A stretch of 50,155 nt of DNA from a virus. Below, piece by piece: positions 970 through 37,694 of the stretch (its first letter is position 1; every line of letters begins with the position of its first letter). Made by a program: the position numbers and the translations under genes. The stretch covers positions 1 through 50,155 of IMG/VR virus record IMGVR_UViG_3300028025_001335. The stretch is one strand, 5' to 3'. The notes below the pieces were generated by a model, which did no database searches, was not told the origin of the DNA, and saw only the letters and a list, made by a program, of their open reading frames with translations.

Positions 970-3150
970 ATGGCATATAATACCATTATACAGGTACTTA
1001 ATACAAGTATAACAGAAGTATCTGTTGATGATGTCACTAATACTTCTTTGTATGCCCCATCACCATACTATACTGAATTAGCTACTGGTGCTATTGGTTT
1101 GCCCGGGCCACAAGGCCCCCAAGGTAACCAAGGTATTCAGGGTGTTCAAGGTCTTAAAGGTGATCAAGGAGACCAAGGCGATCAAGGTATTCAGGGTATC
1201 CAAGGTATTCAGGGTATACAGGGTATCCAAGGTATTAAAGGTGATACTGGAGATACAGGGGCTACAGGGGCAACTGGTGCTAAGGGTGATACTGGTAACA
1301 CAGGTGCTGCAGGAGCTGCAGCTACAATAGCTGTAGGAACTACTACAACTGGTGCGGCAGGTAGTTCTGCAACTGTATCTAACTCTGGAACATCCTCTGC
1401 TGCTGTATTTGATTTTAGTGTACCACAAGGTATTCAAGGTATACAGGGTATTCAAGGTATACAAGGCATACAAGGTATTCAGGGTGTTAAAGGTGACACA
1501 GGTGTAGGATTAACTACAGGTGGTACTGCAGGTCAAATACTTTCCAAAGTAAGTAGCACTGACTATGATGCTCAATGGGTGACTCTCACAGGTACATTAA
1601 ACTACCAAGGGTCATGGAATGCTTCTACAAATACTCCAACTCTTACAAGTAGTGTTGGAACAAATGGTTATTACTATGTTGTTTCTGTTAGCGGGTCTAC
1701 TAACCTCAATGGTATTACGGATTGGGTTGTTGGAGATTGGCTCATATTTAATGGAAGTGTTTGGCAAAAGATTGATCAAACAAACCTAGTATCTTCTGTA
1801 GCGGGTAGAACTGGTGCAGTAACATTATCAAATACTGATATTAGTGGCTTGGGTACTGCTGCAACAACAAACAGCACTGATTATGCTACTGCTGCACAAG
1901 GTGCTAAAGCAGATACAGCTATTCAAACAATTACATCAACTGATGGTAGTGTAGTTGTTACACCATCAGGTACAACAAGTGACCTTAGTGTTGCGTTTTC
2001 AGGATCTACAACAAACGTTATTTGTTTAGTTCGTAATAATACTGGAGCGACTCTTACTAAAGGTACTGCTGTCTATATAAACGGTGCTATTGGTCAAAAC
2101 CCTACAGTAGCTAAAGCATTAGCTACATCGGATGCAACCTCTGCTCAAACTTTAGGTTTGATGACTGCTGACTTAGCTAATAACTCTAATGGTTATGTAA
2201 CTATTATTGGTTTGATTACTAATATAAATACGTCTGCTTATACGGATGGTGAACAGCTTTATTTAAGTCCTACAACTGCAGGGGCTTTAACAGCAACTAA
2301 ACCACATGCGCCACAACATTTAGTATATGCAGCTGTTGTAGAACATGCTCACCCCACACAAGGTAAACTGTTTGTTAAAGTACAAAACGGTTATGAGATG
2401 GATGAGCTACATGATGTATCTGCTCAAAACCCTACTAATGGTCAAATATTAATTTATAATGAAACAACTTCATTATGGGAAAAGCATACACTAACTGATG
2501 GTACAGGTATTAGTATTACTGAAGGTGCGGGTTCAATTACTGTTACTAACAGTGCTCCTGATCAGACAGTAGCTTTAACTGCTGGTACTGGGATTAGTAC
2601 ATCAGGTACATACCCTAACTTTACTGTTACCAATAGTGCTCCTGATCAAACAGTAGCTTTAACAGGTGCGGGTACAACTTCTATTAGCGGTACTTATCCT
2701 AACTTTACAATAACATCTAATGATACTTATACAGGTACTGTTACAAGTGTTACAGGCACAGCCCCTATTGATTCTACTGGCGGTACAACCCCAGCAATTA
2801 GTTTAGCTGCTAGCTATGGTGATACACAAAACCCATATGCATCTAAAACAGCTAACTATGTGTTAGCGTCACCCAATGGATCAGCAGGTGTACCTACATT
2901 TAGAGCTATTGTTGTATCTGATATTCCTACATTAAACCAGAATACAACAGGTACTGCTGCTAATGTAACAGACTCAAGTAACAGCACATTAACTACGCTC
3001 AATGCATTAATCTTACCAACATCACAACTTACTGGTTCTATTAGCATTGCTAATGGGGGTACAGGTGGAACATCAGTAGCTACAGCACAAACAAGCTTAC
3101 AAGTAGACCCAGCGGGAACAGCAGTTGCTTTAGCAATTGCATTAGGTTAA
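970..3150 (+). CDS. Collagen-like tail/head fibre protein
   Basis: 726 residues. A short N-terminal region (about 1-42) is followed by uninterrupted Gly-X-Y triplets at about 43-116 and again at about 154-179, many of them GIQ or GDQ, as expected for a collagen-like triple-helical shaft. The region at about 185-270 resembles a common fibre domain with a GQILSK motif. A later domain contains [20 protein letters not shown], a motif typical of phage fibres. Two near-identical segments, [14 protein letters not shown], mark repeated beta units at about 510-570. The protein ends in a hydrophobic AVALAIALG tail, closely matched at the end of the fibre-like protein at 10401-11096. It is probably a trimeric virion fibre involved in host contact; whether it sits on head or tail is not visible. 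Confidence 0.85.
1096..1317 (+). repeat. Collagen-like Gly-X-Y coding repeats (first block)
   Basis: About 24 Gly-X-Y triplets. At the DNA level the core is a 9-base unit close to GGTATTCAG/CAA repeated with small changes. A second shorter block lies at 1429-1506. Repeats of this kind change length by slippage or recombination, which would change shaft length without breaking the frame. Confidence 0.85.
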
Positions 3151-8454: not shown

Positions 8455-8832
8455 ATGACAAAAATTTGTAGAACATGTAATCAAGAAAAACTATTAAATG
8501 AATTTTCAGTATTAACTACTAAAAAGAAAAGTGGTATTAAATATAATTGTGATTGTAAAATTTGTAGATCAAAAACTAGGCAAGAAAAAGCAAAACAATT
8601 AAAAGCAAAAGCTATACAATATAAAGGTAGTAAATGTAATGATTGTCTAAATATTGTTCATCAAGCAGCATTTGAATTTCATCATTTAAACCCACAAACA
8701 AAAGAAAAAGACCCAACTCATTTTTTAAGGGATGCTGTTGATTTGTCTGATTCAGCAAAACAAGAACTTGATAAATGTGTTTTACTATGTGCTAATTGTC
8801 ATAGGGTTAGACATTTCTCAGACCTAATATAA
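8455..8832 (+). CDS. HNH endonuclease, free-standing homing type
   Basis: 125 residues. An N-terminal zinc finger uses C5, C8, C34 and C37. A second metal-binding pair, C61/C64, precedes the HNH core FEFHHLNP (H76, H77, N79), and the last part of the core is CANCHRVRH with C112, C115, H116 and H120. This is the zinc-supported HNH fold common in phage mobile endonucleases, which nick DNA near their own insertion site. The gene is much richer in A/T and in AAA/AAT codons than the capsid gene just before it, and it sits directly after the capsid terminator, both signs of a later insertion. ATG 8455 has no clear ribosome binding site, only the T-rich tail of the terminator. Confidence 0.85.
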   Translation: MTKICRTCNQEKLLNEFSVLTTKKKSGIKYNCDCKICRSKTRQEKAKQLKAKAIQYKGSKCNDCLNIVHQAAFEFHHLNPQTKEKDPTHFLRDAVDLSDSAKQELDKCVLLCANCHRVRHFSDLI

Positions 8833-10400: not shown

Positions 10401-11096
10401 ATGGGTTATAATACAACCGCTGGCTCAGTCAGCAGCATATCTCCCGGTGGAGAATATGACGCACCTGATGTAGGTAGTAACAGCACATATGTTATTTTAT
10501 CTGCCGCCGAAGCTGCTGCTGCAGCCCTTAGTGCGTCACAGGCTGCTGCCTCTGCAACACTAGCTGTAAACGCATATGATTCTTTTGATGACAGATATTT
10601 AGGCGCTAAATCAGTTGAACCAACACTAGATAATGATGGTAATGCTTTATTAACAGGTGCATTATACTATAATAACGGCTCAGTAGATCCTTTATTACAA
10701 GGCATGAGAGTATACACAGGTGCATTTTGGACAGCAGCGTATACTGCTTCTCCCGGTGCAGGTGCATTATTAGCTACTAACAACCTTGGTGATTTAACAT
10801 CATTATCAACAGCAAGAACTAATTTAGGTGTTACAGCCACAGGCTCTGATACAACATATGCGTATAGAACTAATAATCTTAGTGACCTATCTAATACAGC
10901 TACAGCAAGGTCTAACTTAGGTGTTACAGCAACAGGTGCTGACACAATATACGCATTCAGAAATAATAATTTAAGTGATCTTGGTGATGTCCCTACAGCT
11001 AGGACTAACTTAGGTTTAGGCACTGCAGCTTTAGCTTCAACAACAGACTTTGATGCAGCAGGATTAGCAGTAGCTATGGCTATTGCACTTGCATAA
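10401..11096 (+). CDS. Fibre-like protein with repeated NLSDL units
   Basis: 231 residues. An Ala-rich helix at about 33-55 (AAEAAAAALSASQAAASA) may trimerise. A domain with DSFDDRYLGAK and MRVYTGAFWTAAY, typical of phage fibres and needles, follows. Three copies of a unit of about 28 residues then follow, built on NNL(S/G)DL....TAR(T/S)NLG. The protein ends in a hydrophobic FDAAGLAVAMAIALA tail like that of the collagen-like fibre. It is probably an attachment or adaptor piece of a virion fibre. AAGGAGATATGTA gives a strong ribosome binding site before ATG 10401. Confidence 0.75.
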   Translation: MGYNTTAGSVSSISPGGEYDAPDVGSNSTYVILSAAEAAAAALSASQAAASATLAVNAYDSFDDRYLGAKSVEPTLDNDGNALLTGALYYNNGSVDPLLQGMRVYTGAFWTAAYTASPGAGALLATNNLGDLTSLSTARTNLGVTATGSDTTYAYRTNNLSDLSNTATARSNLGVTATGADTIYAFRNNNLSDLGDVPTARTNLGLGTAALASTTDFDAAGLAVAMAIALA

Positions 11097-11108: not shown

Positions 11109-11435
11109 ATGGCAAATACATTCACATCTTACGTTAATAAATCCGTAGGCACATCAGCTGCAACTGTAGTTACTGTTGGTGCATCAACCCAAACAACTGT
11201 TATTGGCATGTCATGTGCTAATACCACAATAAGCCCAGTCACAGTAGACGCTTACTTTACACGTTCTGCTGTAGACTTTTACTTAGTTAAAGGTGCTACA
11301 GTACCAGTAGGTGGTGCATTAGTTATTGTTGGTGGAGATCAAAAGGTAGTATTAACACCTAGTGATGCTCTTAAGGTAGTATCTTCTGCTACAACATCTA
11401 TTGACGTTGTAACATCTGTACTTAACATTACTTAA
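11109..11435 (+). CDS. Small beta-sandwich virion protein
   Basis: 108 residues, strongly beta-patterned and Thr/Val/Ala-rich, with the segment VPVGGALVIVGGDQKVVL. This is a pattern I have seen in small head-fibre or tail accessory proteins of many phages, but the family has no function I can name. AATAAGGAACAAAC precedes ATG 11109, 12 bases after the previous stop. No membrane segment. A virion role is inferred from composition and neighbours. Confidence 0.65.
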   Translation: MANTFTSYVNKSVGTSAATVVTVGASTQTTVIGMSCANTTISPVTVDAYFTRSAVDFYLVKGATVPVGGALVIVGGDQKVVLTPSDALKVVSSATTSIDVVTSVLNIT

Positions 11436-11443
11436 GGTTAGCT

Positions 11444-12385
11444 ATGGCATACTTAGGTAACTCATCTACACAACAATCATTTACACCTGCCATTGATTAT
11501 TTTAATGGTGATGGTTCTACAACAGCGTTTACATTGTCTAGACCTGTAGCATCTGTTGCACAGATTCAAGTAACAATTAATAATGTGGCTCAAAACCCTT
11601 CATCTGCATATACAGTAAATGGTAGCACAATTACATTTACTTCTGCCCCATTAAGTGGGTCTAATAATATTTATGTTTATTATACAAGTCCTAATACACA
11701 GGTGATTGCACCAAGTCAAGGTACTGTGTTTCCAACATCATTGAGCACTGGTGGCCTATACTGGAATACCTCTGGTAATGTGGGGATTGGTACGAGTTCT
11801 CCAGCATATAAGTTGGACGTAATAGGGCAAGGTAGAGCAACAACAGGGTTTGCTGTAAGCACAGATGGCTCTACTTTTACACCATCGGGTTTAAATGCAA
11901 TACCAAATTATGGTGTTGGATACATAACAAGCACATCACAAACTGTTATTTCTGGTTTTGGTGGAATTCCATTCTACACCAATCAAGTTGAGCGTATGCG
12001 CCTTGATTCTAGCGGTAACTTGCTATTCAACTCAGGCTATGGCTCTGTTGCTACTGCATATGGTTGTCGTGCTTGGGTACAATTTAATGGTTCAGGCACT
12101 GTTACAATTAATTCAAGCGGTAATGTAACAAGTATTACAGATAATGGTGTAGGTAACTATACACTTACTTTTACAAATAATTTTCCTGATACAAACTATG
12201 CTTTAAATTTTGGTATTTGTTCTGGTTCTAGTGGCCTTAATGCTGGGTTTGTTGGCTATGTTATTTCAGCAACACAGTATGGATTACCAAATATTAAAAC
12301 TGCAAACACTTGCCAAATTGGTTTTGGAGATTACACAGCCACTCCAAGAGATTTTTCACAATTATATGTTACGGTATTTAGATAA
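11444..12385 (+). CDS. Tail fibre protein with anchor domain and C-terminal tip (type B)
   Basis: 313 residues. The N-terminal part (about 1-85) has YFNGDGSTTAFTLSRPV and a following beta pattern, the anchor domain seen on many phage fibres. The middle contains WNTSGNVGIGTSSPAYKLDV, a widespread fibre repeat. From C208 the C-terminal tip, starting CRAWVQFNGSGTVTINSSG and including ITDNGVGNYTLTF, is shared with the separate protein at 16387-16779, which consists almost only of this tip. It is probably a receptor-binding fibre. It opens the array of tip-like genes that extends to 17367. Confidence 0.8.
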   Translation: MAYLGNSSTQQSFTPAIDYFNGDGSTTAFTLSRPVASVAQIQVTINNVAQNPSSAYTVNGSTITFTSAPLSGSNNIYVYYTSPNTQVIAPSQGTVFPTSLSTGGLYWNTSGNVGIGTSSPAYKLDVIGQGRATTGFAVSTDGSTFTPSGLNAIPNYGVGYITSTSQTVISGFGGIPFYTNQVERMRLDSSGNLLFNSGYGSVATAYGCRAWVQFNGSGTVTINSSGNVTSITDNGVGNYTLTFTNNFPDTNYALNFGICSGSSGLNAGFVGYVISATQYGLPNIKTANTCQIGFGDYTATPRDFSQLYVTVFR

Positions 12386-12393
12386 GGACAATT

Positions 12394-12597
12394 ATGAATC
12401 AAAGAATTATTTACCCAAACGATAATGGTGGTGTATCTATAGTAATCCCAACACCTGAATGGCTTTCCCAAGAAGGGAATACAATAGAAATTCTTGTTAC
12501 TAAGTCTGTCCCTGAAGGTAAACCATTTAAAATTGTAGATGTATCTGATATTCCAACAGACAGAACATTTCGTGACGCATGGGAGTACTCAGAATGA
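12394..12597 (+). CDS. Small tip-associated protein X1 (67 aa)
   Basis: 67 residues starting MNQRIIYPNDNGGVSIVIP and containing VPEGKPFKIVDVSDIPTDR. A paralogue with the same two motifs lies at 16788-16979. Proteins of this type follow fibre genes in many phages and prophages; a role in fibre folding or assembly is often supposed but I know of no proof. ATAAGGACAATT precedes ATG 12394, and the stop overlaps the next start (ATGA). Confidence 0.75.
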   Translation: MNQRIIYPNDNGGVSIVIPTPEWLSQEGNTIEILVTKSVPEGKPFKIVDVSDIPTDRTFRDAWEYSE

Positions 12598-12827
12598 TAA
12601 CTATTAACATTGACAAAGCTAAAGCTATTGCTCACGATAAACGAAGAGAAGCAAGAACCGCTGAGTTTGCACCATTAGACATCAAGGCAACCATTCCATC
12701 TGAAGCATCTGCTGCAGAAGCAGCAAGACAAGTTATTAGAGACAAATATGCACTTATGCAAAGTGATATTAATGCTGCAACAACAACAGAACAAATTAAG
12801 GCAGCTATGCCAAAGGTGACAACATAA
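12594..12827 (+). CDS. Small tip-associated protein Y1 (77 aa)
   Basis: 77 residues from ATG 12594, which overlaps the previous stop as ATGA, so translation is probably coupled. It begins MITINIDKAKAIAHDKRR and is a charged, helical protein; the paralogue at 16976-17197 begins almost identically. Together with protein X1 it forms a conserved pair downstream of a type B tip. A chaperone-like or fibre-assembly role is inferred from the constant linkage with fibres. Confidence 0.75.
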   Translation: MITINIDKAKAIAHDKRREARTAEFAPLDIKATIPSEASAAEAARQVIRDKYALMQSDINAATTTEQIKAAMPKVTT

Positions 12828-13375
12828 TGCCTATAAGCACAATAGATCAAACAGGGTTATCAGCCCCATTAAGTCTGACAAGTCCTGTAATCGCAGGAAC
12901 TCCAACAGGTGTGGGGGTTCTTACGAGTGGTACTGCGGTTGCGTCTACTTCAGGTGTAGCTATTGATTTTACTAGTATTCCTTCATGGGCTAAACGCATT
13001 ACTGTAATGTTATACGGAGTATCTACAACTGGAACATCAAACTATTTAATTCAAGTTGGTGCTGGATCAATTACAACTTCAGGGTATGTTGCTGGCTCTA
13101 TGTCTGGTGGTACTTATGTTTCATCTACAGCTGGTTTAATTTTAGTTAACAATATAGTAGCTGCCGATCTTTTTTCTGGAATATTAGTTTTAACAAATGT
13201 TACTGGAAATACTTGGGTATCTATAAGTAACATGAACAAAGCAGGATCACCACCCGCAGTTTTACCAGCAGCAGGTAATATTGTATTAGGGGGTACTTTA
13301 GATCGAATACGATTAACAACAGTAAACGGAACAGATACATTCGATGCCGGTTCCATTAACATACTATACGAATAA
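12827..13375 (+). CDS. Fibre-tip paralogue A1
   Basis: 182 residues. A short lead of about 35 residues is followed by the type A tip: GTAVASTSGVAIDFTSIPSW, then KRITVMLYGVSTTGTSNY, ending in the signature LDRIRLTTVNGTDTFDAG and SINILYE. The same tip ends four other proteins in this array. There is no long anchor domain, so attachment to the virion must be through the short N-terminus or another fibre. ATG 12827 overlaps the previous stop by one base (TAATG). Confidence 0.75.
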   Translation: MPISTIDQTGLSAPLSLTSPVIAGTPTGVGVLTSGTAVASTSGVAIDFTSIPSWAKRITVMLYGVSTTGTSNYLIQVGAGSITTSGYVAGSMSGGTYVSSTAGLILVNNIVAADLFSGILVLTNVTGNTWVSISNMNKAGSPPAVLPAAGNIVLGGTLDRIRLTTVNGTDTFDAGSINILYE

Positions 13376-13384
13376 GGAGGATAT

Positions 13385-14449
13385 ATGAGTTATATAGGTA
13401 ATGAACCTTCAACTACAGCCTTCTTAACGGATACTTTTAATGGTACAGGCGCTCAATTAATATTCACTATGTCTGTAGCACCCGCTAATACAACCTCTGT
13501 ATTAGTAGCTATATCAGGCGTAGTACAAGACCCATCTACATATGCTGTAGCGGGTACTACATTAACATTCTCTGGACCACCTCCTAGTGGCACAGGTAAT
13601 ATCTCAGTAAGGTATCTTGGTATACCTGCCTCAGGTGTAACTAATACAGCATACAGAACAGTAACTGACTTCACTGCTACAGCTGGGCAGACATCCTTTA
13701 CAGTACCTAGCTATACGGTAGGTTATATTGATGTGTATCGTAATGGTGTTAGATTAGCAGCCGCTGACTATACAGCCTCTACAGGTACTACAGTAGTGTT
13801 AGCTAGTGGATGTACACTTAATGACGTAGTAACTACTGAATCATTCTATGTATCAAGCGTATTGAATGCTATTCCAGCTACTGCTAATGCTATTAATTCA
13901 ACTTACTTAAGCCCTAGCTTAACATTAACAACACCTGCTATTGCTAGTCCTGTTATTAGTGGTACTCCATCAGGGGTAGGGGTTCTTACTAGTGGTACTG
14001 CCCAAGCATCTACTTCAGGTACAAACATTGACTTTACTTCTATCCCATCATGGGTAAAACGGATTACTGTATTGTTTGCAGGTGTTAGTGTAAACGCATC
14101 TTCAATTATTCAAGTTCAATTAGGAACTGGGTCAACAACTTATACAACAACTGGATATCTTGGTGGCGGGTGGTTTGCAAACACAACAAACACTAACGTA
14201 ACAACTGGAATACCTGTTATTGCATCTGGCGCAGGTGCTAGTGCAAGGACTCTTCGAGGAACAATGACTATTGCAAATATTACAGGCAACACTTGGGTAG
14301 CCTCAGCAACTATATTTGATGATAACGCATCAGGTTGTTTAAGTGGAAGCTCTATTGCTCTTGCCGCTCCTTTAACTGCTATTCGTCTTACTACCGTAAA
14401 CGGTATAGATGTATTTGACGCTGGCACTATTAACATTTTATATGAGTAA
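13385..14449 (+). CDS. Fibre protein with anchor domains and type A tip (A2)
   Basis: 354 residues. The N-terminal anchor begins MSYIGNEPSTTAFLTDTFNG and runs to about 80, related to that of the fibre at 11444. A second beta domain at about 90-165 contains YIDVYRNGVRL, a common fibre motif. The last 170 residues are a type A tip, starting around SGTAQASTSGTNIDFTSIPS and ending FDAGTINILYE. It is the only type A member with a full-length anchor, so it may be the scaffold onto which the short paralogues assemble; that is inference. AAGGAGG, a near-perfect ribosome binding site, precedes ATG 13385. Confidence 0.8.
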   Translation: MSYIGNEPSTTAFLTDTFNGTGAQLIFTMSVAPANTTSVLVAISGVVQDPSTYAVAGTTLTFSGPPPSGTGNISVRYLGIPASGVTNTAYRTVTDFTATAGQTSFTVPSYTVGYIDVYRNGVRLAAADYTASTGTTVVLASGCTLNDVVTTESFYVSSVLNAIPATANAINSTYLSPSLTLTTPAIASPVISGTPSGVGVLTSGTAQASTSGTNIDFTSIPSWVKRITVLFAGVSVNASSIIQVQLGTGSTTYTTTGYLGGGWFANTTNTNVTTGIPVIASGAGASARTLRGTMTIANITGNTWVASATIFDDNASGCLSGSSIALAAPLTAIRLTTVNGIDVFDAGTINILYE

Positions 14450-14454
14450 ACAAC

Positions 14455-14976
14455 ATGACAAAAGCAGTTAATCTAGCCGCAGTAGGCTCAAATGCAAACT
14501 CAGGTGGATCGTTAATTACAAGTGGTACTGCTGTTGCTAGTACATCGGGTACAAGTATTAATTTTACTGATATACCTAGTTGGGTTGAACGTATCACTGT
14601 GATGTTTAATGGTGTTAGTACAAGTGGAACAAACCCAATTTTAATACAAGGCGGTAACAGTAGTGGTATTGTAAATACTGGTTATAATTCAACATCAAAT
14701 CACTTTAACGCATCAACAAGTACTAGTGGAGCAAGCAGTACTGCGGGTTTTATATTTTTTAGTAATTCTGCCGCTTCTATTCATTCTGGAATTATTACTT
14801 TAGTAAATATTAGTGGCTCTACATGGGTTTCTTCACATACAGCAAAAAGCTTAGCTTCATTGGTTGTTACAGGTGGTGGTGATGGTGTCATATCTACATT
14901 AGATAGAATACGTATAACAACTACAACTGCAGTAGATACATTTGACGCAGGCTCCATCAACATTTTATATGAGTAA
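14455..14976 (+). CDS. Fibre-tip paralogue A3
   Basis: 173 residues made of a lead of about 20 residues and a type A tip: GTAVASTSGTSINFTDIPSW, KRITVM-like ERITVMFNGVSTSGTN, and the end DRIRITTTTAVDTFDAGSIN. It lies five bases after A2. The middle of the tip differs strongly from the other copies while the beginning and the end are nearly constant, a pattern expected when exposed loops diversify on a conserved frame. Confidence 0.75.
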   Translation: MTKAVNLAAVGSNANSGGSLITSGTAVASTSGTSINFTDIPSWVERITVMFNGVSTSGTNPILIQGGNSSGIVNTGYNSTSNHFNASTSTSGASSTAGFIFFSNSAASIHSGIITLVNISGSTWVSSHTAKSLASLVVTGGGDGVISTLDRIRITTTTAVDTFDAGSINILYE

Positions 14977-14982
14977 ACAACT

Positions 14983-15192
14983 ATGGCACTAACTAAAGTA
15001 GCATCTCAAATGATTGGTGGTGGATCAGGTATAGCCTTCTCACCATCAGTCCCTATATACGAAAATACATTAACAGTAGCTTCATCTTACACTATTACAA
15101 GTGGCTCATCAGCAATGTCTGTTGGCCCCATCACGATTACTTCAGGTAACTCAGTGAGTATACCTAGTGGAAGTAAATGGGTTATATTATGA
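14983..15192 (+). CDS. Small conserved fibre-region protein (69 aa)
   Basis: 69 residues. The end TITSGNSVSIPSGSKWVIL is a pattern found at the C-terminus of many small or fibre proteins of aquatic phages. It begins MALTKVASQMIGGG, also typical. It has no type A tip, and it separates paralogues A3 and A4. It may be a stand-alone fragment of a fibre or a minor virion component; the function is unknown. It starts six bases after the previous stop. Confidence 0.65.
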   Translation: MALTKVASQMIGGGSGIAFSPSVPIYENTLTVASSYTITSGSSAMSVGPITITSGNSVSIPSGSKWVIL

Positions 15193-15202
15193 AGGAATAC
15201 AC

Positions 15203-15799
15203 ATGAGTTCATTAATTATAGCGGGGGATACCTCAGGGCAGATAGCGGTAGCAGCCCCTGCTGTTGCAGGTACAAATACGCTGACACTTCAAGCCGCCAC
15301 TGCGACAAATGCTGTCAATACATTGAGTACAGCGGTTGCATCTACCAGTGGTACAAGCATTTCATATACAGGTTTTCCTAATTGGATTAAAAGAATAACA
15401 GTTATGTTTTCTGGCATAAGCACAAGCTCAACAAACAATATACAAGTTCAACTTGGTAGTGGAACTATTGATATTGCGAGCTATGGTGGAAGCGCCATGT
15501 CAGTCCGCGCTGGCGGGTTATCTAATGTCTACAACAACAGTACAGGTTTTATTGTTTGTGCTGAAGTAGCAGCGGCAGCTGTAATCTCTGGAAGTGTGAT
15601 TATTAACTTGCTAGGCTCAAATACTTGGGTGTGTAATGGGAACACTGCTGACAGCGGCGGCGCTGGAAGATCAACCATTCAAGGCGGCACAAAAACATTG
15701 TCAGGGACATTGGATCAGATAAGAATTATTGGTAGCGCAACAGGCAACCCATCTGATACTTTTGACCTTGGCACTATCAACATTCTGTACGAAGGATAA
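15203..15799 (+). CDS. Fibre-tip paralogue A4
   Basis: 198 residues from ATG 15203, preceded by GAAGGAAT; an in-frame ATG at 15167 lies inside the previous gene and has no such site. The N-terminus (SLIIAGDTSGQIAVAAPAVA, about 1-35) is a common fibre-like lead. The remainder is a type A tip with GFPNWIKRITVMFSGISTSS and the end FDLGTINILYEG. Codons here become noticeably richer in G and C (for example GGCGGCGCTGG at 15656) than in the fibre genes to the left, suggesting that A4 onward came from another phage. Confidence 0.75.
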   Translation: MSSLIIAGDTSGQIAVAAPAVAGTNTLTLQAATATNAVNTLSTAVASTSGTSISYTGFPNWIKRITVMFSGISTSSTNNIQVQLGSGTIDIASYGGSAMSVRAGGLSNVYNNSTGFIVCAEVAAAAVISGSVIINLLGSNTWVCNGNTADSGGAGRSTIQGGTKTLSGTLDQIRIIGSATGNPSDTFDLGTINILYEG

Positions 15800-15801
15800 T
15801 C

Positions 15802-16383
15802 ATGTCAATACTTGTTTTAACTTCTGATACATTAATTGGTACACCTTCTACAGGTAACATCGAATACAACGGTCAATTCTTTGGCACTGACAGCAATGCG
15901 TCTCGGGCGCAGTTGCAGAGGATCGTAAGGACTACTGCTGTTGCCTCTACATCAAGTACAAGCGTTACATTTACTGGCATACCCGCATGGGCAAAACGAA
16001 TTACTGTAATGCTTAATGGGGTAAGTACAAGCGGGTCAAATAATTTGCAAATTCAAATTGGTTCAGGCTCTGCCTTAACTACTGGATATGTGGGATTTAC
16101 ATGGTTAGGTAATACTAATAACGCCTCACATTCAACTGGGTTTTTACTTAGCGCAGGAGCATTAGCAACTTATACTTATTATGGTAATGCTATTTTGACA
16201 AATATAACAAGTAACAGTTGGGTTTTTTCTGTTTCGGCAGGCGTAACAGCTGCTAATACTGCTGTTACCGGTGGTGGATCAAACACTACATTAAGCGGGG
16301 TTTTAGATCGTGTAATTATTACTTCTGTAGGCGGCACAGACACTTTTGACGCTGGTTCAATCAACATTTTGTACGAGGGCTAA
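15802..16383 (+). CDS. Fibre-tip paralogue A5
   Basis: 193 residues. A lead containing LTSDTLIGTPSTGNIEYNGQ, a frequent fibre motif, is followed by a type A tip (FTGIPAWAKRITVMLNGVST to FDAGSINILYEG). It starts two bases after the stop of A4 with AAGGATAATC ahead of ATG 15802. It shares with A4 the extra Gly at the C-terminus, so A4 and A5 are probably each other's closest relatives in the array. Confidence 0.75.
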   Translation: MSILVLTSDTLIGTPSTGNIEYNGQFFGTDSNASRAQLQRIVRTTAVASTSSTSVTFTGIPAWAKRITVMLNGVSTSGSNNLQIQIGSGSALTTGYVGFTWLGNTNNASHSTGFLLSAGALATYTYYGNAILTNITSNSWVFSVSAGVTAANTAVTGGGSNTTLSGVLDRVIITSVGGTDTFDAGSINILYEG

Positions 16384-16386
16384 ATC

Positions 16387-16779
16387 ATGGCAGTAACAAT
16401 TGATGGATCAGCAGGTGTCACGACAAACGCTGGTGGGTCTGTAAACCCATCGACAACGATTGATGGCATCAACTACTCATGCCGTGCTTGGGTGAACTTT
16501 AACGGCACAGGCACTGTGGCAATTCGTGGAAGTGGTAATGTGTCATCTATTACAGACAATGGCACAGGTGACTACACAATAAATTTTACAACTGCAATGA
16601 CTGATGCAAATTATTCAACAGTAGGCACTACTGGAAGCCCTGCGGTGGCTCATGGTGTTTTTATGTTTATTACAGGCACAGGCACTGCTACAACTGCATC
16701 TAATGTAAGAATTGGTACTGTTACACAAAGTTCGGTTCTTTATGACTACGTGAATGTACTTTGCGCCATTTTTAGATAA
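16387..16779 (+). CDS. Stand-alone type B tip protein
   Basis: 130 residues. About 30 residues of lead (MAVTIDGSAGVTTNAGGSVN) precede the type B tip, beginning CRAWVNFNGTGTVAIRGSGN at C32, with ITDNGTGDYTINFTTAM, and ending in NVLCAIFR. It is homologous to the C-terminal third of the fibre at 11444-12385 and, like it, is followed by X and Y proteins. It lacks the anchor and shaft domains. Confidence 0.8.
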   Translation: MAVTIDGSAGVTTNAGGSVNPSTTIDGINYSCRAWVNFNGTGTVAIRGSGNVSSITDNGTGDYTINFTTAMTDANYSTVGTTGSPAVAHGVFMFITGTGTATTASNVRIGTVTQSSVLYDYVNVLCAIFR

Positions 16780-16787
16780 GGAAAACC

Positions 16788-16979
16788 ATGAACTCAAGAA
16801 TCATTTATCCAAACGATGATGGTGGTGTATCAATCGTCATTCCAGCACCAGAGTGCGGTTTAACTATTGAAGAAATTGCCGCAAGGTCTGTTCCTGAAGG
16901 CAAGCCATTCAAGATCGTTGATGTTGCTGATATACCAACAGACCGCACATTCCGCAACGCATGGGAGTACACAGCATGA
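16788..16979 (+). CDS. Small tip-associated protein X2 (63 aa)
   Basis: 63 residues beginning MNSRIIYPNDDGGVSIVIPA and containing VPEGKPFKIVDVADIPTDRT, a clear paralogue of the protein at 12394-12597. It differs mainly in the variable middle (ECGLTIEEIAAR). ATAAGGAAAACC precedes ATG 16788; the end overlaps the Y2 start by four bases. Confidence 0.75.
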   Translation: MNSRIIYPNDDGGVSIVIPAPECGLTIEEIAARSVPEGKPFKIVDVADIPTDRTFRNAWEYTA

Positions 16980-17197
16980 TTACCATCAACATTAACAAAG
17001 CCAAGAACATTGCTCACGACAAGCGCAGAAAAGCACGATCTGCTGAGTTTGCGCCTTTGGACATTAAGGCAACGATTCCCTCTGAGGCAACAGAGGCAGA
17101 AGCGGCAAGGCAAGCTGTGCGTGATAAATACACCGCCATGCAAGCCGCAATTGATGCGGCAACAACAACTGAACAAATTAAGGAGGCAATGCTATGA
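16976..17197 (+). CDS. Small tip-associated protein Y2 (73 aa)
   Basis: 73 residues from ATG 16976, in an ATGA overlap with X2. MITININKAKNIAHDKRRKA and the following FAPLDIKATIPSEA match protein Y1 (12594-12827) closely. It is helical, charged and without a membrane segment. Its end overlaps the next start as ATGA, so X2, Y2 and the following gene form a coupled set. Confidence 0.75.
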   Translation: MITININKAKNIAHDKRRKARSAEFAPLDIKATIPSEATEAEAARQAVRDKYTAMQAAIDAATTTEQIKEAML

Positions 17198-17367
17198 CAC
17201 ATAGAATCGTAGTAAACGTACAAACAGGTGTAACTACACAAGTAGAATACACCCCTGAAGAACAAGCTGCACATGATGCAGCAGTAGCGCAAGCTGCCGA
17301 ATTAGCAGCACAACAAGCAGCAGAGGCAACAGTTCAGGTAGTAGTACCTGAAGCAACCGCACCGTAA
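17194..17367 (+). CDS. Small Ala/Gln-rich protein (57 aa)
   Basis: 57 residues starting MTHRIVVNVQTGVTTQVEYT, followed by an Ala-rich helix (PEEQAAHDAAVAQAAELAAQ) and a short hydrophobic tail. ATG 17194 overlaps the Y2 stop, and AAGGAGG lies at 17180-17186, an ideal ribosome binding site. Proteins with a PEEQAA helix of this kind commonly sit next to fibre genes in phages. The function is unknown. Confidence 0.65.
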   Translation: MTHRIVVNVQTGVTTQVEYTPEEQAAHDAAVAQAAELAAQQAAEATVQVVVPEATAP

Positions 17368-17576
17368 TGAGTGAAGACACAGTAACTTTAACACAAGCTA
17401 AATTAATGTCTCATGAGCAAGTATGCTCAGAACGTTATGCAGCTATTGCAGCTAGTCTTCAAGCAGCAGGAACAAGAATGACTAAAATAGAATACCTCTT
17501 ATATGGTGTTATGTTATGTGTATTACTTGGCCCCGGTACTGCTGCTGATTTTATTAAACATTTAATAGGAGTATGA
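17367..17576 (+). CDS. Holin-like small membrane protein
   Basis: 69 residues. The N-terminal half is hydrophilic and helical. One hydrophobic stretch, YLLYGVMLCVLLGPG at about 43-57, can span the membrane, followed by a short tail. The layout (helical head, one membrane segment, small size) and the position at the start of the lysis cassette fit a class III or XhlA-like holin, which would permeabilise the inner membrane. It starts in a TAATG overlap with the previous stop. Another membrane protein in this cassette could be the real holin. Confidence 0.55.
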   Translation: MSEDTVTLTQAKLMSHEQVCSERYAAIAASLQAAGTRMTKIEYLLYGVMLCVLLGPGTAADFIKHLIGV

Positions 17577-17577
17577 A

Positions 17578-18279
17578 ATTGAACCTATCAGTCTTATTCT
17601 CATGGGTGCGTACCAATGTGTCAATGCTATCAAAGAAGGTTGTGACCTTTATAAGCAAGCTAAAGAATCCTTTGTCGAAATAAAAGAAACATACGATGAA
17701 GCAATGGGGGATGTAGAAGAACTTAAAGGTATCTTTGCATTCCTCATGACTTTTTTTCGTGAAAAAATATTCGGTAGTAAACCTAAACCAATAGTAGCTA
17801 AGCCTAAAGCTAAACAAAAACAAAAATATGTTACTGTTGATGAAACAAAAATTAGATCAGATGTAATACAACAATTAACTAAGTTTTTTAAATTACAAGA
17901 ACAATTAGCTGAACATATCCGTGAAGAAGAATATAAAAGTAAAAACGTATATAATAAGAATCAAAACCATATGGAGTCAGCTTTACTAAGAGTAGATGCG
18001 TTAGACCAGATGGCTGCTTTAGAAGTCACAATAAGAGAAACAATGGTTTATCAAAGCCCACCTGAAATGGGTGCCTTGTATTCTAAAGTGTTTGATATGA
18101 GGAATGTAATACGTCAAGAACAAGATGAGGCTAGGCTCAAACAAGAAAAACTTGATAGGAACATAAAATGGCAACAACGAGAAGACCAGCGGGAAAAGGA
18201 AATAACAATAGCATTAGTTCTGCTGACTCTATTCCTAATTGGTTACCTCCACCTATGGTTCCTGTACCTGAGCCATTAG
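17578..18279 (+). CDS. Coiled-coil protein with C-terminal membrane anchor, probable ATT start
   Basis: From ATT 17578 the product is 233 residues; from the first ATG (17602) it is 225. AGGAG at 17567-17571 is ideally spaced for the ATT and too far from the ATG, and the extra residues (start-EPISLIL) match the hydrophobic 'M-D/E-P-I-S-L-I' openings I associate with this type of phage protein. A Lys/Pro-rich linker (KPKPIVAKPKAKQKQK) at about 70-85 separates the N-terminal helix from a long coiled coil, and a membrane segment (ITIALVLLTLFLIGYLHLWF) closes the protein. The function is unknown; its place between lysis genes suggests a membrane-associated lysis or entry-control role. Confidence 0.65.
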   Translation: MEPISLILMGAYQCVNAIKEGCDLYKQAKESFVEIKETYDEAMGDVEELKGIFAFLMTFFREKIFGSKPKPIVAKPKAKQKQKYVTVDETKIRSDVIQQLTKFFKLQEQLAEHIREEEYKSKNVYNKNQNHMESALLRVDALDQMAALEVTIRETMVYQSPPEMGALYSKVFDMRNVIRQEQDEARLKQEKLDRNIKWQQREDQREKEITIALVLLTLFLIGYLHLWFLYLSH

Positions 18280-18467
18280 AAAGGAATCATGGTATGTTTT
18301 ATTTAGGTTGGGTTGCTGCTTGTGTATTAGTAGCTTTGTTATTGCCATTAAGTTCTTTTATATTTTTTAAAGTATATGAGACACAATTACAAGCTGAATA
18401 TACTTTACATGAAGTAGAACAAATTAAAAAAGAAATAGAACGAAAACAAGCAAAGGATAAACAATGA
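18168..18467 (+). CDS. Single-span membrane protein (99 aa)
   Basis: 99 residues: a Pro-rich N-terminal region (SIPNWLPPPMVPVPEPLE), one membrane segment at about 44-67 (YLGWVAACVLVALLLPLSSF), and a charged coiled-coil tail (HEVEQIKKEIERKQAKDKQ). It overlaps the preceding gene by 112 bases in another frame, but TAGGAACATAAA before ATG 18168 and the coherent membrane topology support a real gene. Its stop overlaps the next start by four bases (ATGA). It may be a holin or antiholin component; this is only inferred from place and topology. Confidence 0.65.
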   Translation: MATTRRPAGKGNNNSISSADSIPNWLPPPMVPVPEPLERNHGMFYLGWVAACVLVALLLPLSSFIFFKVYETQLQAEYTLHEVEQIKKEIERKQAKDKQ

Positions 18468-18790
18468 AGCAATTAGAAAAAGATTCAGCATATAATCAAT
18501 TTGATACTGATAAAGATGGTGTAGTAACTGATGCCGAATTAGCCAGATCAGAACGAATGATGATGATTGAAAACATGGATAAGATGGCTGATCAACAGCG
18601 TATTATGGCATGGTTTGCTCTTGTATTACCTCCAATTGTTATCATGTATTTAGGTTCTGCTCTTGTATTGTTAGATAAAGTAAATGCTCTTAATGGTTTA
18701 GCAACTACATACTGTGCTGCAATGGGTACTATTGTTGTTGCATTCATGGCTGCTCATGCTTATGCTCGAGGAAAGATGGCTGATGCGTAA
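18464..18790 (+). CDS. EF-hand membrane protein, holin-like
   Basis: 108 residues. Residues about 13-24 are a canonical EF-hand loop, DTDKDGVVTDAE, with Asp at positions 1, 3 and 5, Gly at 6, a hydrophobic residue at 8 and Glu at 12. A short helix and two membrane segments follow (WFALVLPPIVIMYLGSALVL and YCAAMGTIVVAFMAAHAYA). I recall similar small EF-hand membrane proteins in marine phages. Two spans, small size and location directly before the spanins suggest a holin, here with a possible calcium-sensing head; calcium binding is inferred from the loop alone. Confidence 0.7.
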   Translation: MKQLEKDSAYNQFDTDKDGVVTDAELARSERMMMIENMDKMADQQRIMAWFALVLPPIVIMYLGSALVLLDKVNALNGLATTYCAAMGTIVVAFMAAHAYARGKMADA

Positions 18791-19265
18791 TATAATTATA
18801 GGTATCATATTATCTATTGTTACTTTTATTGCTGGTTACTTTAAAGGTGAGTATGATAAAGGCGTAGATGTAGCATTACAAGTAACTAAAGCTAATGAAG
18901 CTTCTGCAGAAAAAGAAAAGCAATTAACTCAAGTAGCAGTTACATATGCTACTGTACTAAGAGAGAAAGAAAATAATGCAAACAAAAAGATCCAAGCTCT
19001 TCGTAATGATGTTGCCTCTGGTAATCGTAGGTTGTTCATTCCTGTCTCCACCCAAGCCCCCAACTGTAGTGTACAAGCCACCACAGATGCCCCCACTACC
19101 AGTGGAAGTGACACAAGAGAAACACGAGCCGAACTTGACCGAAAGACTTCTGACGATCTTATCGCCATAACAGCGGAAGGTGACTCAGCTATTCGTAAGT
19201 TAAACACATGTATTAATCAGTATAACGAGATTAAGGATAAATTAAATGACGCAATTAAGCACTAA
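18783..19265 (+). CDS. Rz: Rz-like inner-membrane spanin
   Basis: 160 residues from ATG 18783; GAGGAAAG lies about seven bases upstream, and the start overlaps the previous gene by eight bases. A single N-terminal membrane anchor (IIIGIILSIVTFIAGYFKGE) is followed by a long coiled coil and a Thr/Ser-rich stretch. RNDVASGNRRLFIPV is the typical Rz motif of the phage lysis protein family. A second gene with lipoprotein features is embedded in the +1 frame at 18976-19170, as in lambda and T7-type Rz/Rz1 pairs. The pair would bridge the periplasm and fuse inner and outer membranes at the final lysis step. Confidence 0.85.
   Translation: MRNIIIGIILSIVTFIAGYFKGEYDKGVDVALQVTKANEASAEKEKQLTQVAVTYATVLREKENNANKKIQALRNDVASGNRRLFIPVSTQAPNCSVQATTDAPTTSGSDTRETRAELDRKTSDDLIAITAEGDSAIRKLNTCINQYNEIKDKLNDAIKH
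18976..19170 (+). CDS. Rz1: Rz1-like outer-membrane lipoprotein spanin, embedded in Rz
   Basis: 64 residues lying entirely inside the Rz gene in another frame. A basic N-terminus (MQTKRSK) and hydrophobic stretch lead to a lipobox, LVIVGC, giving a mature lipoprotein starting at Cys20. The mature part is proline-rich (SPPKPPTVVYKPPQMPPLP), exactly the composition of Rz1 proteins. This arrangement is strong evidence for a Gram-negative host. Confidence 0.85.
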   Translation: MQTKRSKLFVMMLPLVIVGCSFLSPPKPPTVVYKPPQMPPLPVEVTQEKHEPNLTERLLTILSP

Positions 19266-19710
19266 CTTTACTTTAAAAGAACTATCTAGATCAGATACAG
19301 CTACTCGATTAGGCTTTGATAATACACCTGACGCTACAGCTACAGCTAATTTAAAAACATTATGCGAAAAAGTATTACAACCTGTAAGAGATCATTACGG
19401 TAAAGTAACTGTTAATAGTGCTTATAGATCACCTGAGTCAAATGCTGCTGTAGGTGGTTCAAAAACATCAGATCACTGTAAAGGTATGGCTGCTGATATT
19501 GAAGTATCAGGCACAGCTAATGGTGACTTAGCTCAATACATTAAAGATAATTTTAAATTTACACAATTAATTCTCGAGTTCTACACTCAAGGTATACCTG
19601 ATTCAGGTTGGGTTCACGTATCATATGATCCAGCTAATCTAAAATGTGAATGTTTAACTGCTACAAAACAAAACGGTAAAACAGTATACTTAAAAGGTTT
19701 ACAACCTTAA
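19246..19710 (+). CDS. Endolysin, M15-type peptidase
   Basis: 154 residues. The M15 (D-Ala-D-Ala carboxypeptidase or L-Ala-D-Glu endopeptidase) zinc motif is visible as SDHCKGMAADIE, with His and Asp as metal ligands, and the third ligand in GWVHVSYD. The N-terminal helix and YRSPESNAAVGGSK lead are also typical of this family. Without a signal peptide it would need the holin for access to the peptidoglycan. ATG 19246 lies inside the end of Rz (20-base overlap). The phage promoter motif follows right after the stop, so the lysis operon ends here. Confidence 0.9.
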   Translation: MTQLSTNFTLKELSRSDTATRLGFDNTPDATATANLKTLCEKVLQPVRDHYGKVTVNSAYRSPESNAAVGGSKTSDHCKGMAADIEVSGTANGDLAQYIKDNFKFTQLILEFYTQGIPDSGWVHVSYDPANLKCECLTATKQNGKTVYLKGLQP

Positions 19711-37453: not shown

Positions 37454-37528
37454 TGGTGGGTCATGCATGAATCGAACATGCACTCGTGACTTAGAAGATC
37501 ACTGTTCTATCCATTGAACTAATGACCC
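37454..37528 (-). tRNA. tRNA-Arg (anticodon TCT)
   Basis: Full cloverleaf: acceptor GGGTCAT pairs perfectly with ATGACCC, anticodon stem GTGAT/GTCAC, loop CTTCTAA with anticodon TCT, T arm GCATGTTCGATTCATGC, and encoded 3' CCA. It reads AGA and AGG, codons used often by this AT-rich genome and commonly rare in hosts. Confidence 0.95.
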
Positions 37529-37535
37529 TATTAAA

Positions 37536-37611
37536 TGGTTGCGACAATTGGGTTTGAACCAATGACCTAGCGATTATCAATCGCTTGCTCTACCAACTGA
37601 GCTATGCCGCA
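37536..37611 (-). tRNA. tRNA-Ile (anticodon GAT)
   Basis: Acceptor TGCGGCA with TGTCGCA (one G-U), D arm AGCTCAGTTGGTAGAGC, anticodon stem AGCGA/TCGCT with loop TTGATAA (anticodon GAT), T loop TTCAAAC, encoded CCA. It reads ATC and ATT. It lies seven bases from the Arg tRNA. Confidence 0.93.
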
Positions 37612-37619
37612 TTGTATGG

Positions 37620-37694
37620 TGGTTGCGGAAACTGGGATCGAACCAGTGACCAAGGGATTATGAGTCCCCTGCTCTACCATTGAGCTACTCCGCA
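37620..37694 (-). tRNA. tRNA with anticodon CAT (Met, or more likely Ile2)
   Basis: Acceptor TGCGGAG with TTTCCGCA end (one G-U), D arm AGCTCAATGGTAGAGC, anticodon arm GGGGACTCATAATCCCT, T arm CTGGTTCGATCCCAG, encoded CCA. The U1-A72 pair excludes a standard initiator tRNA. The arm and variable region (ACTCATAATCCCTTGGTC) look more like E. coli tRNA-Ile2 (ACTCATAATCGCTTGGTC) than elongator Met. If the host's TilS modifies C34, it would read ATA. Confidence 0.9.

Follow-up and report, generated by a model that had tools for sequence, protein, structure and literature searches.

The window, as we call the whole stretch of DNA analysed here, is the 50,155-base viral record IMGVR_UViG_3300028025_001335, whose positions 11,444 to 17,367 hold a run of small neighbouring genes that a first-pass annotation read as paralogous fibre tips. 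Compared with related phages, this run is an array of eight ordered slots, seven of which carry an exchangeable tip, each on its own leader, and the swapping of tips, both between slots and between phages, can be shown from the sequence of related contigs. We consider it quite probable that the locus is a host-recognition array, in which eight fixed slots with leaders of their own receive tips that are swapped between slots and phages. Many ordered sites here use one tip pool and are common to phages with unrelated capsids, and exchange can be read to both junctions; the published cases of receptor-binding swap that we found involve one to four sites per phage, whereas here there are eight.

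Leaders are kept while tips are replaced

The comparison used eighty loci chosen for a related capsid gene, and about 250 related contigs overall, with the closest array-bearing relative (IMGVR_UViG_3300020044_002757, hereafter L154) as reference. Against L154, the flanking genes of the window are 83-92% identical in nucleotides and the leaders mostly 75-98% (66% in slot 7 and 55% in slot 8), while the tips are 30-45% identical. The point at which identity drops is particular to the slot, lying near residues 100, 40, 165, 22 and 38 in slots 1, 2, 3, 4 and 6, respectively, and slot 5 is conserved along its whole length. Slots 2, 4 and 6 carry another type A tip in L154; slots 3 and 7, type A in the window, have other tip families there; slot 1 has a type B tip in the window and a carbohydrate-binding-like one in L154; and slot 8 is type B in the window and type A in L154. 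Leader and tip pairings were counted among 409 array proteins with complete ends, where the slot 3 leader (l3; the others are named likewise) bears seven tip families (A 14, B 9, C1q-like 23, S74-like 6, and others) and tip A is found on the l1, l2, l3, l4, l6 and l7 leaders; family names besides A and B were given by resemblance only. As first described, only two members have a long anchor (11444-12385 and 13385-14449). The remaining ones are not nearly tip-only, as had been thought, since each short gene bears a slot-specific leader of about 22-42 residues that is conserved between phages.

Type A tips have constant ends and a variable middle

All five type A tips (12827-16383) and both type B tips (11444-12385 and 16387-16779) of the first-pass annotation were recovered by profile and sibling searches, and any one type A tip as query recovers all five with an E value of 5.5e-24 or better. 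The contrast between constant ends and a differing middle is borne out in the window, where the ends of the five tips are 53-76% identical and the middle 18-30%, and among 205 distinct type A tips, whose mean column entropy is 0.79 bits over residues 24-60, 2.64 over residues 78-144 and 0.71 over residues 145-173 (numbering of the protein starting at 14455). The tips do not differ evenly along their length, as no other position of a block of equal length yields as large an entropy contrast.

The slot 4 protein (14455) is predicted to form an all-beta domain, with a mean predicted local distance difference test score (pLDDT) of 88.9. When the alignment is mapped onto this model the central block varies, and its predicted strands vary as much as its loops (2.70 against 2.50 bits), so that variation in type A is not confined to loops; on the model, the pattern is one of a variable block and not of variable loops. 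The earlier idea that loops diversify on a frame therefore does not hold, as whole central strands vary and close pairs carry no excess of change in the middle. Sequence searches found no solved-structure relatives of tip A, and its fold matches to galectin-like or lactococcal receptor-binding-protein-like domains were weak (template-modelling score, TM, at most about 0.4; E > 0.001) and were not used as evidence. Tip B weakly resembles part of the phiAB6 tailspike (TM 0.47, E 0.009).

Tips are exchanged between slots

The most direct case involves two contigs, L253 and L299, whose nucleotide identity is 95% both in the 5.7 kb that precede the second slot of the array and in 0.9 kb on the right. 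Each contig contains slot 2, with the leader MPISTI, and further on a slot whose leader is MALTQVAGG. L253 carries a tip, T, in slot 2 and another, U, 60% identical to T, in the MALTQVAGG slot. L299 has a type B tip in slot 2, and its MALTQVAGG slot is a composite: the leader is 96-100% identical in nucleotides to that of L253, the middle is 90-100% identical to tip T over most blocks and 20-63% to U, and the last codons (90-100%) and the 3' flank (97%) again match L253. Because the slot's own leader, last codons and 3' flank surround the middle of tip T, both junctions, at alignment columns of about 41-80 and 171-190, lie within the constant ends; the middle may have come from an L253-type slot 2 or from a third phage. 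In two more contig pairs (L285/L254 and L053/L034), one tip stands on different leaders at 85% nucleotide identity, with the match confined to the tip.

The same pattern is seen at a larger scale in the 129 tips of known slot. On their tree the slot label changes 64 times, the minimum being 5 and the mean of shuffled labels 72.6. In comparisons that do not control for relatedness, tips of one slot resemble each other over residues 78-144 no better than they resemble tips of other slots, but they do so over residues 20-24 (z 3.5). The last residues of the tip also go with the slot, with YE 34 times and YEG once on l2, l3 and l4, YEG 12 times and YE never on l7, and a mixture in slots 6 and 8. 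A middle that belongs to no slot, combined with slot-bound outer junctions, is what would be expected if tips swap between constant ends.

Small genes linked to tips and a block shared by unrelated phages

Several tip families are accompanied by a small gene of their own. Of 70 distinct type B genes, 44 have directly behind them a YPND-family gene, which stands behind no type A gene; a 51-residue gene directly follows 77 of 83 carbohydrate-binding-like tips and again no type A tip, and a 90-residue gene directly follows 29 of 53 tips of a third type. Type A genes have no such small gene behind them; those in slot 8 are followed by the end gene of the array (17194-17367 in the window), a homologue of which stands behind 50 distinct type A tip genes. 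Tip linkage and position suggest that the small genes encode a chaperone or a cap. The claim that this is not one fibre with a chaperone thus stands for type A tips and fails for type B and two other families, which travel with chaperone-like genes. The type B cassette, consisting of the tip, the YPND gene and a CH gene, occurs twice in the window, since the pairs at 12394-12827 and 16788-17197 each follow a type B gene (repeats D3, D6 and D9). Between the two cassette copies, 12481-12780 and 16863-17162 are 75% identical over 300 nucleotides.

The 11.1-19.7 kb part of the window has a counterpart in three contigs that show hardly any other similarity to the window, namely G2 and G3, each with six leaders, and G4, in which the array is divided between the ends of the contig. 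The match covers the array and its flank genes, and lysis genes are also present in G2 and G4. The portals of the three contigs score 26-34 bits against the SU10_portal profile, against 417 for the window, and the capsid of G2 matches phrog_371 while that of the window matches phrog_1328. Since the block matches while portal and capsid are unrelated, these comparisons indicate that a block of host-recognition and lysis genes moves between backbones.

Elsewhere in the window, 970-3150 encodes a 726-residue protein with collagen-like repeats (PF01391, 54.8 bits). Its residues 318-505 are 71% identical to the product of the gene that adjoins the array on the left in G4, a contig unrelated in other respects, and the 726-residue protein may be a further fibre that trades segments with this pool.

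Recombination and its alternatives

A sharp constant-variable-constant profile could also be left by targeted hypermutation of the tip middle, for example by a diversity-generating retroelement, an explanation to which we give next to no credence. In type A pairs above 85% identity there is no excess of change in the middle over the ends (0.10 against 0.11, and 0.03 against 0.07), and the ratio of nonsynonymous to synonymous substitution (dN/dS) of close tip pairs is 0.06-0.28; on these two results hypermutation of the middle was rejected. Profile searches of 21 records (the window and 20 related ones), in which controls were detected, found no reverse transcriptase (RVT_1), although the window may be a fragment, because some relatives with a related capsid reach 58-64 kb, and such a gene could lie outside it. 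This absence, together with the lack of focal change in close pairs, led us to reject a retroelement target. The same searches, again with controls detected, gave no match to resolvase (PF00239) or tyrosine integrase (PF00589), and inverted repeats in the window are only short and imperfect, on which grounds an invertible tail-fibre cassette was rejected as well. The initial observation that no reverse transcriptase or invertase is visible is therefore confirmed by profile searches, and the absence of these enzymes, the lack of a middle excess and the low dN/dS point to recombination and not to hypermutation. With the swap cases added, they support the original view that the locus is a set of receptor-binding-like tips and that recombination has diversified them. 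In-place tandem duplication, by which one tip gene was copied five times and the copies drifted, is very unlikely to have built the array. It would suit five neighbours of one tip family, and fourfold sites at the tip ends do agree slightly more within a contig (0.47) than between contigs (0.38). However, each slot has a different leader, and L154 as well as unrelated phages have the orthologues arranged in the same sequence of slots. The five nearest tips of each window tip never include a sibling, and fourfold sites at the ends of the five window tips are near saturation (0.44 agree, 0.36 expected by composition). Because these sites are so close to saturation, the constant ends are held mainly by protein constraint, and recent within-genome gene conversion of the ends in the window was rejected.

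Two further alternatives concern how the short genes are used. They could be a store of alternative tips, with one or two anchored fibres being built and the short genes acting as gene-conversion donors, and the restriction of long anchors to slots 1 and 3, as well as the movement of tips between slots, would agree with this. Yet the short genes keep start codons, in several cases with a Shine-Dalgarno-like site, intact frames and leaders, none of which a donor needs, and the type A ends of the window were not recently converted, so that we regard a store as rather improbable. The short tip proteins might instead be virion decorations or particle adhesins and not primary receptor binders. Some phages have capsids decorated by small beta domains, a virion anchor is not recognised in the short tip proteins, and their receptor binding is itself deduced from sequence. 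Against this, such tips also form the ends of anchored or long fibre-like proteins, here and in other phages, and the short tip genes adjoin fibre genes, which makes a decorating role distinctly unlikely in our judgement.

How the array may work

The reading that we prefer, a host-recognition array with swapped tips, would involve exchange in two forms. Either the middle of a type A tip is traded between constant ends, or another tip family is brought in, often with its matching small downstream gene. When two phages infect the same cell, homologous recombination could bring about both forms, with crossovers in the leaders and in the constant ends. The tips would bind host surface molecules, l1 and l3 would anchor two fibres, short-leader tips would dock onto the same complex, and one virion may display several different tips at once. 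As all slots keep their order, leader and open frame, each slot is most likely made and used as part of a multi-tip complex, and the conserved order and intact leaders favour co-assembly over alternative tips. Host range would then probably be changed or widened by re-plugging tips rather than by mutating them.

Several points weigh against this interpretation. Receptor binding and co-assembly in one virion are inferred from sequence, and homologous recombination is the presumed pathway. PHROG and Pfam searches recognise no virion anchor in the short-leader tips, so their docking is a guess, and the PDB holds no close fold for tip A. The tip tree has weak support, with a star on 13 of its 124 inner branches; relatedness among the phages is left uncorrected in the slot tests, and only six contigs have six or more of the eight leaders. 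The YE and YEG endings may be held by selection on the ribosome site of the next gene, besides crossover position, as the extra glycine codon of YEG gives GAAGGA or GAGGGC just ahead of the next start codon.

A bolder version is that the eight leaders are standard sockets common to unrelated phages, that any pooled tip fits any socket, and that a virion shows about seven different tips at once. We hold this to be possible but rather doubtful. If it were true, a phage population would explore host range through the re-sorting of tips over sockets. The array itself makes it possible to test how phages keep pace with changing host surfaces, by tallying which tips stand in which slots within one habitat, and it is a natural source of small binding domains that can be interchanged.

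Comparison with known systems

Swapping of receptor-binding modules is well known. The distal tail fibre adhesins of T-even phages, as Tetart reportedly described in 1998 (cited in PMC7468147), are exchanged between conserved motifs that flank variable specificity segments. The array is similar in that conserved blocks flank variable segments and would serve as crossover sites, but each T-even phage has one adhesin locus, and no sequence relation between that adhesin and the array was found.

Phages of the Ackermannviridae carry a branched tailspike complex of up to four tailspikes, in which C-terminal modules 91-100% alike occur on different spike types and exchange at a conserved motif has been proposed (PMC8432352; PMC11414711). 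The array shares with them adjacent receptor-binding genes with slot-specific conserved N-termini and exchangeable C-termini. Unlike those spikes, it has eight slots; its tips are small and have no recognised enzyme domain, five of them belong to one family, most leaders are very short, the crossovers could be mapped to within the two constant ends, and joint assembly of the tips is presumed. No array protein has a Pfam match to the XD or gp10-like branching domains. By analogy, the array may work like this multi-spike complex, and we do not file it as a member. In the Alteromonas phages A5, V22 and P24, which differ in morphology and have no other similarity, a host-recognition block of fibre and chaperone is shared (PMC10579305). 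The present block is likewise common to otherwise unrelated phages, but the Alteromonas block contains a single tail fibre and a single chaperone, whereas the present one comprises eight slots that travel with lysis genes, and its tips are re-sorted internally. Aquatic phages have metaviromic islands or flexible modules in which, as far as the accessible text of these studies goes, C1q-like, carbohydrate-binding or fibre tips vary or swap on a stable core (PMC3909814; PMC7468147). Receptor-binding tips vary as alleles there as in the array; the modules in those portions are single variable genes or domains, unlike the many sites here, which draw on one pool and between which exchange was measured. 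Domain shuffling of receptor-binding proteins has also been surveyed broadly across phages (PMC10684548), a general survey whose available part describes no multi-slot array of the present kind. The array can thus be seen, by analogy, as a many-slot variant of the Ackermannviridae and Alteromonas logic, with more and smaller slots.

Gene content of the array and the window

All genes of the array and its flanks lie on the plus strand. At the left end stands a conserved gene of 108 residues (11109-11435; 89% amino acid identity to L154), and unrelated phages have a homologue in the corresponding place before slot 1 (59-85%). Slot 1 (11444-12385) consists of the anchor leader l1, of about 95 residues and 78-95% identical in nucleotides to L154, followed by the type B tip, where identity falls to about 30-40%. 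Its product matches PHROG 18673 (tail fiber) in the N-terminal part and 11355 at the tip, and scores 19.7 bits against the T7-type tail fibre anchor PF03906, under the curated cut-off of 25.2. The YPND-family gene of the first type B cassette (12394-12597) is chaperone-like by position, and the CH-family gene behind it (12594-12827) matches phrog_20196, of unknown function. Slot 2 (12827-13375; l2 of about 34 residues, type A) was delimited by sibling tip search and comparison with L154, as was slot 7 below. In slot 3 (13385-14449), the anchor leader l3, of about 176 residues, is 90% identical in amino acids to that of L154, whose tip is of a different family, and precedes a type A tip. This leader is encoded by 206 viral-contig stretches and is homologous to the other long anchor, l1 (41% over 80 residues). 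Slot 4 (14455-14976), whose structure was predicted, has a leader of about 22 residues and a type A tip. Slot 5 (14983-15192), which separates the third type A gene from the fourth, encodes a short protein of 69 residues with no type A tip, 71-74% identical in unrelated phages; it is 96% conserved in L154 though its neighbours are replaced. Slots 6 (15203-15799; l6 of about 38 residues) and 7 (15802-16383; l7 of about 40 residues) carry type A tips that end in YEG; in slot 6 the longest open reading frame begins at 15167, and GAAGGA lies ahead of the ATG at 15203. Slot 8 (16387-16779) has a short leader and a type B tip, and is followed by the second YPND-family (16788-16979) and CH-family (16976-17197) genes, both assigned from the repeats and tip linkage.

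By profile match, the tips are members of the tail-fibre or receptor-binding tip proteins (PHROG 18673, 29482 and 11355). Three of the five type A proteins match PHROG 29482 or 18673 at 1e-5 or better and both type B tips match 11355 at 1e-13 or better; the proteins starting at 15203 and 15802 have no PHROG match, yet match their sibling type A tips. Pfam gives no confident domain in any array protein.

On the right, the end gene of the array (17194-17367; 80% amino acid identity to L154) follows slot 8 in other phages too. Beyond it lie a conserved gene of 69 residues (17367-17576; 90% to L154) and one common to unrelated phages (17602-18279; 95% to L154, 53-60% with other backbones). The lysis region (18464-19710) holds an Rz-like gene (18714-19265; Phage_lysis 23.9 bits, just below the cut-off) and an M15 endolysin (19246-19710; Peptidase_M15_3 73.7 bits), and is shared at 37-76% with G2 and G4. 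To the left of the array, 10401-11096 encodes a short fibre-like protein with 93-nucleotide direct repeats (NNLSDL..TARTNLG), whose homologues in relatives range from about 230 to 800 residues. The pair formed by this gene and the one at 11109 is tandemly doubled in the relative L152 (8617-11621), possibly a trace of recombination at the array's edge.

Judging from its portal (PF23899, 415.9 bits; 417 in the comparison with G2 to G4) and adaptor (PF24175, 35.6 bits), the backbone of the window is that of an SU10-like podovirus. Among named phages, Roseobacter phage CRP-7 has the nearest capsid protein (52% identity), and the window also encodes a T7-type RNA polymerase, a DnaB-type helicase, DNA polymerase A and a class II ribonucleotide reductase. 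An HNH-like gene (8455-8832) separates the capsid gene from the structural gene that comes next; some relatives have it at the same place and others lack it. Three clustered tRNA genes (Arg-TCT, Ile-GAT and Met-CAT; 37454-37694) adjoin the B12-dependent ribonucleotide reductase gene.

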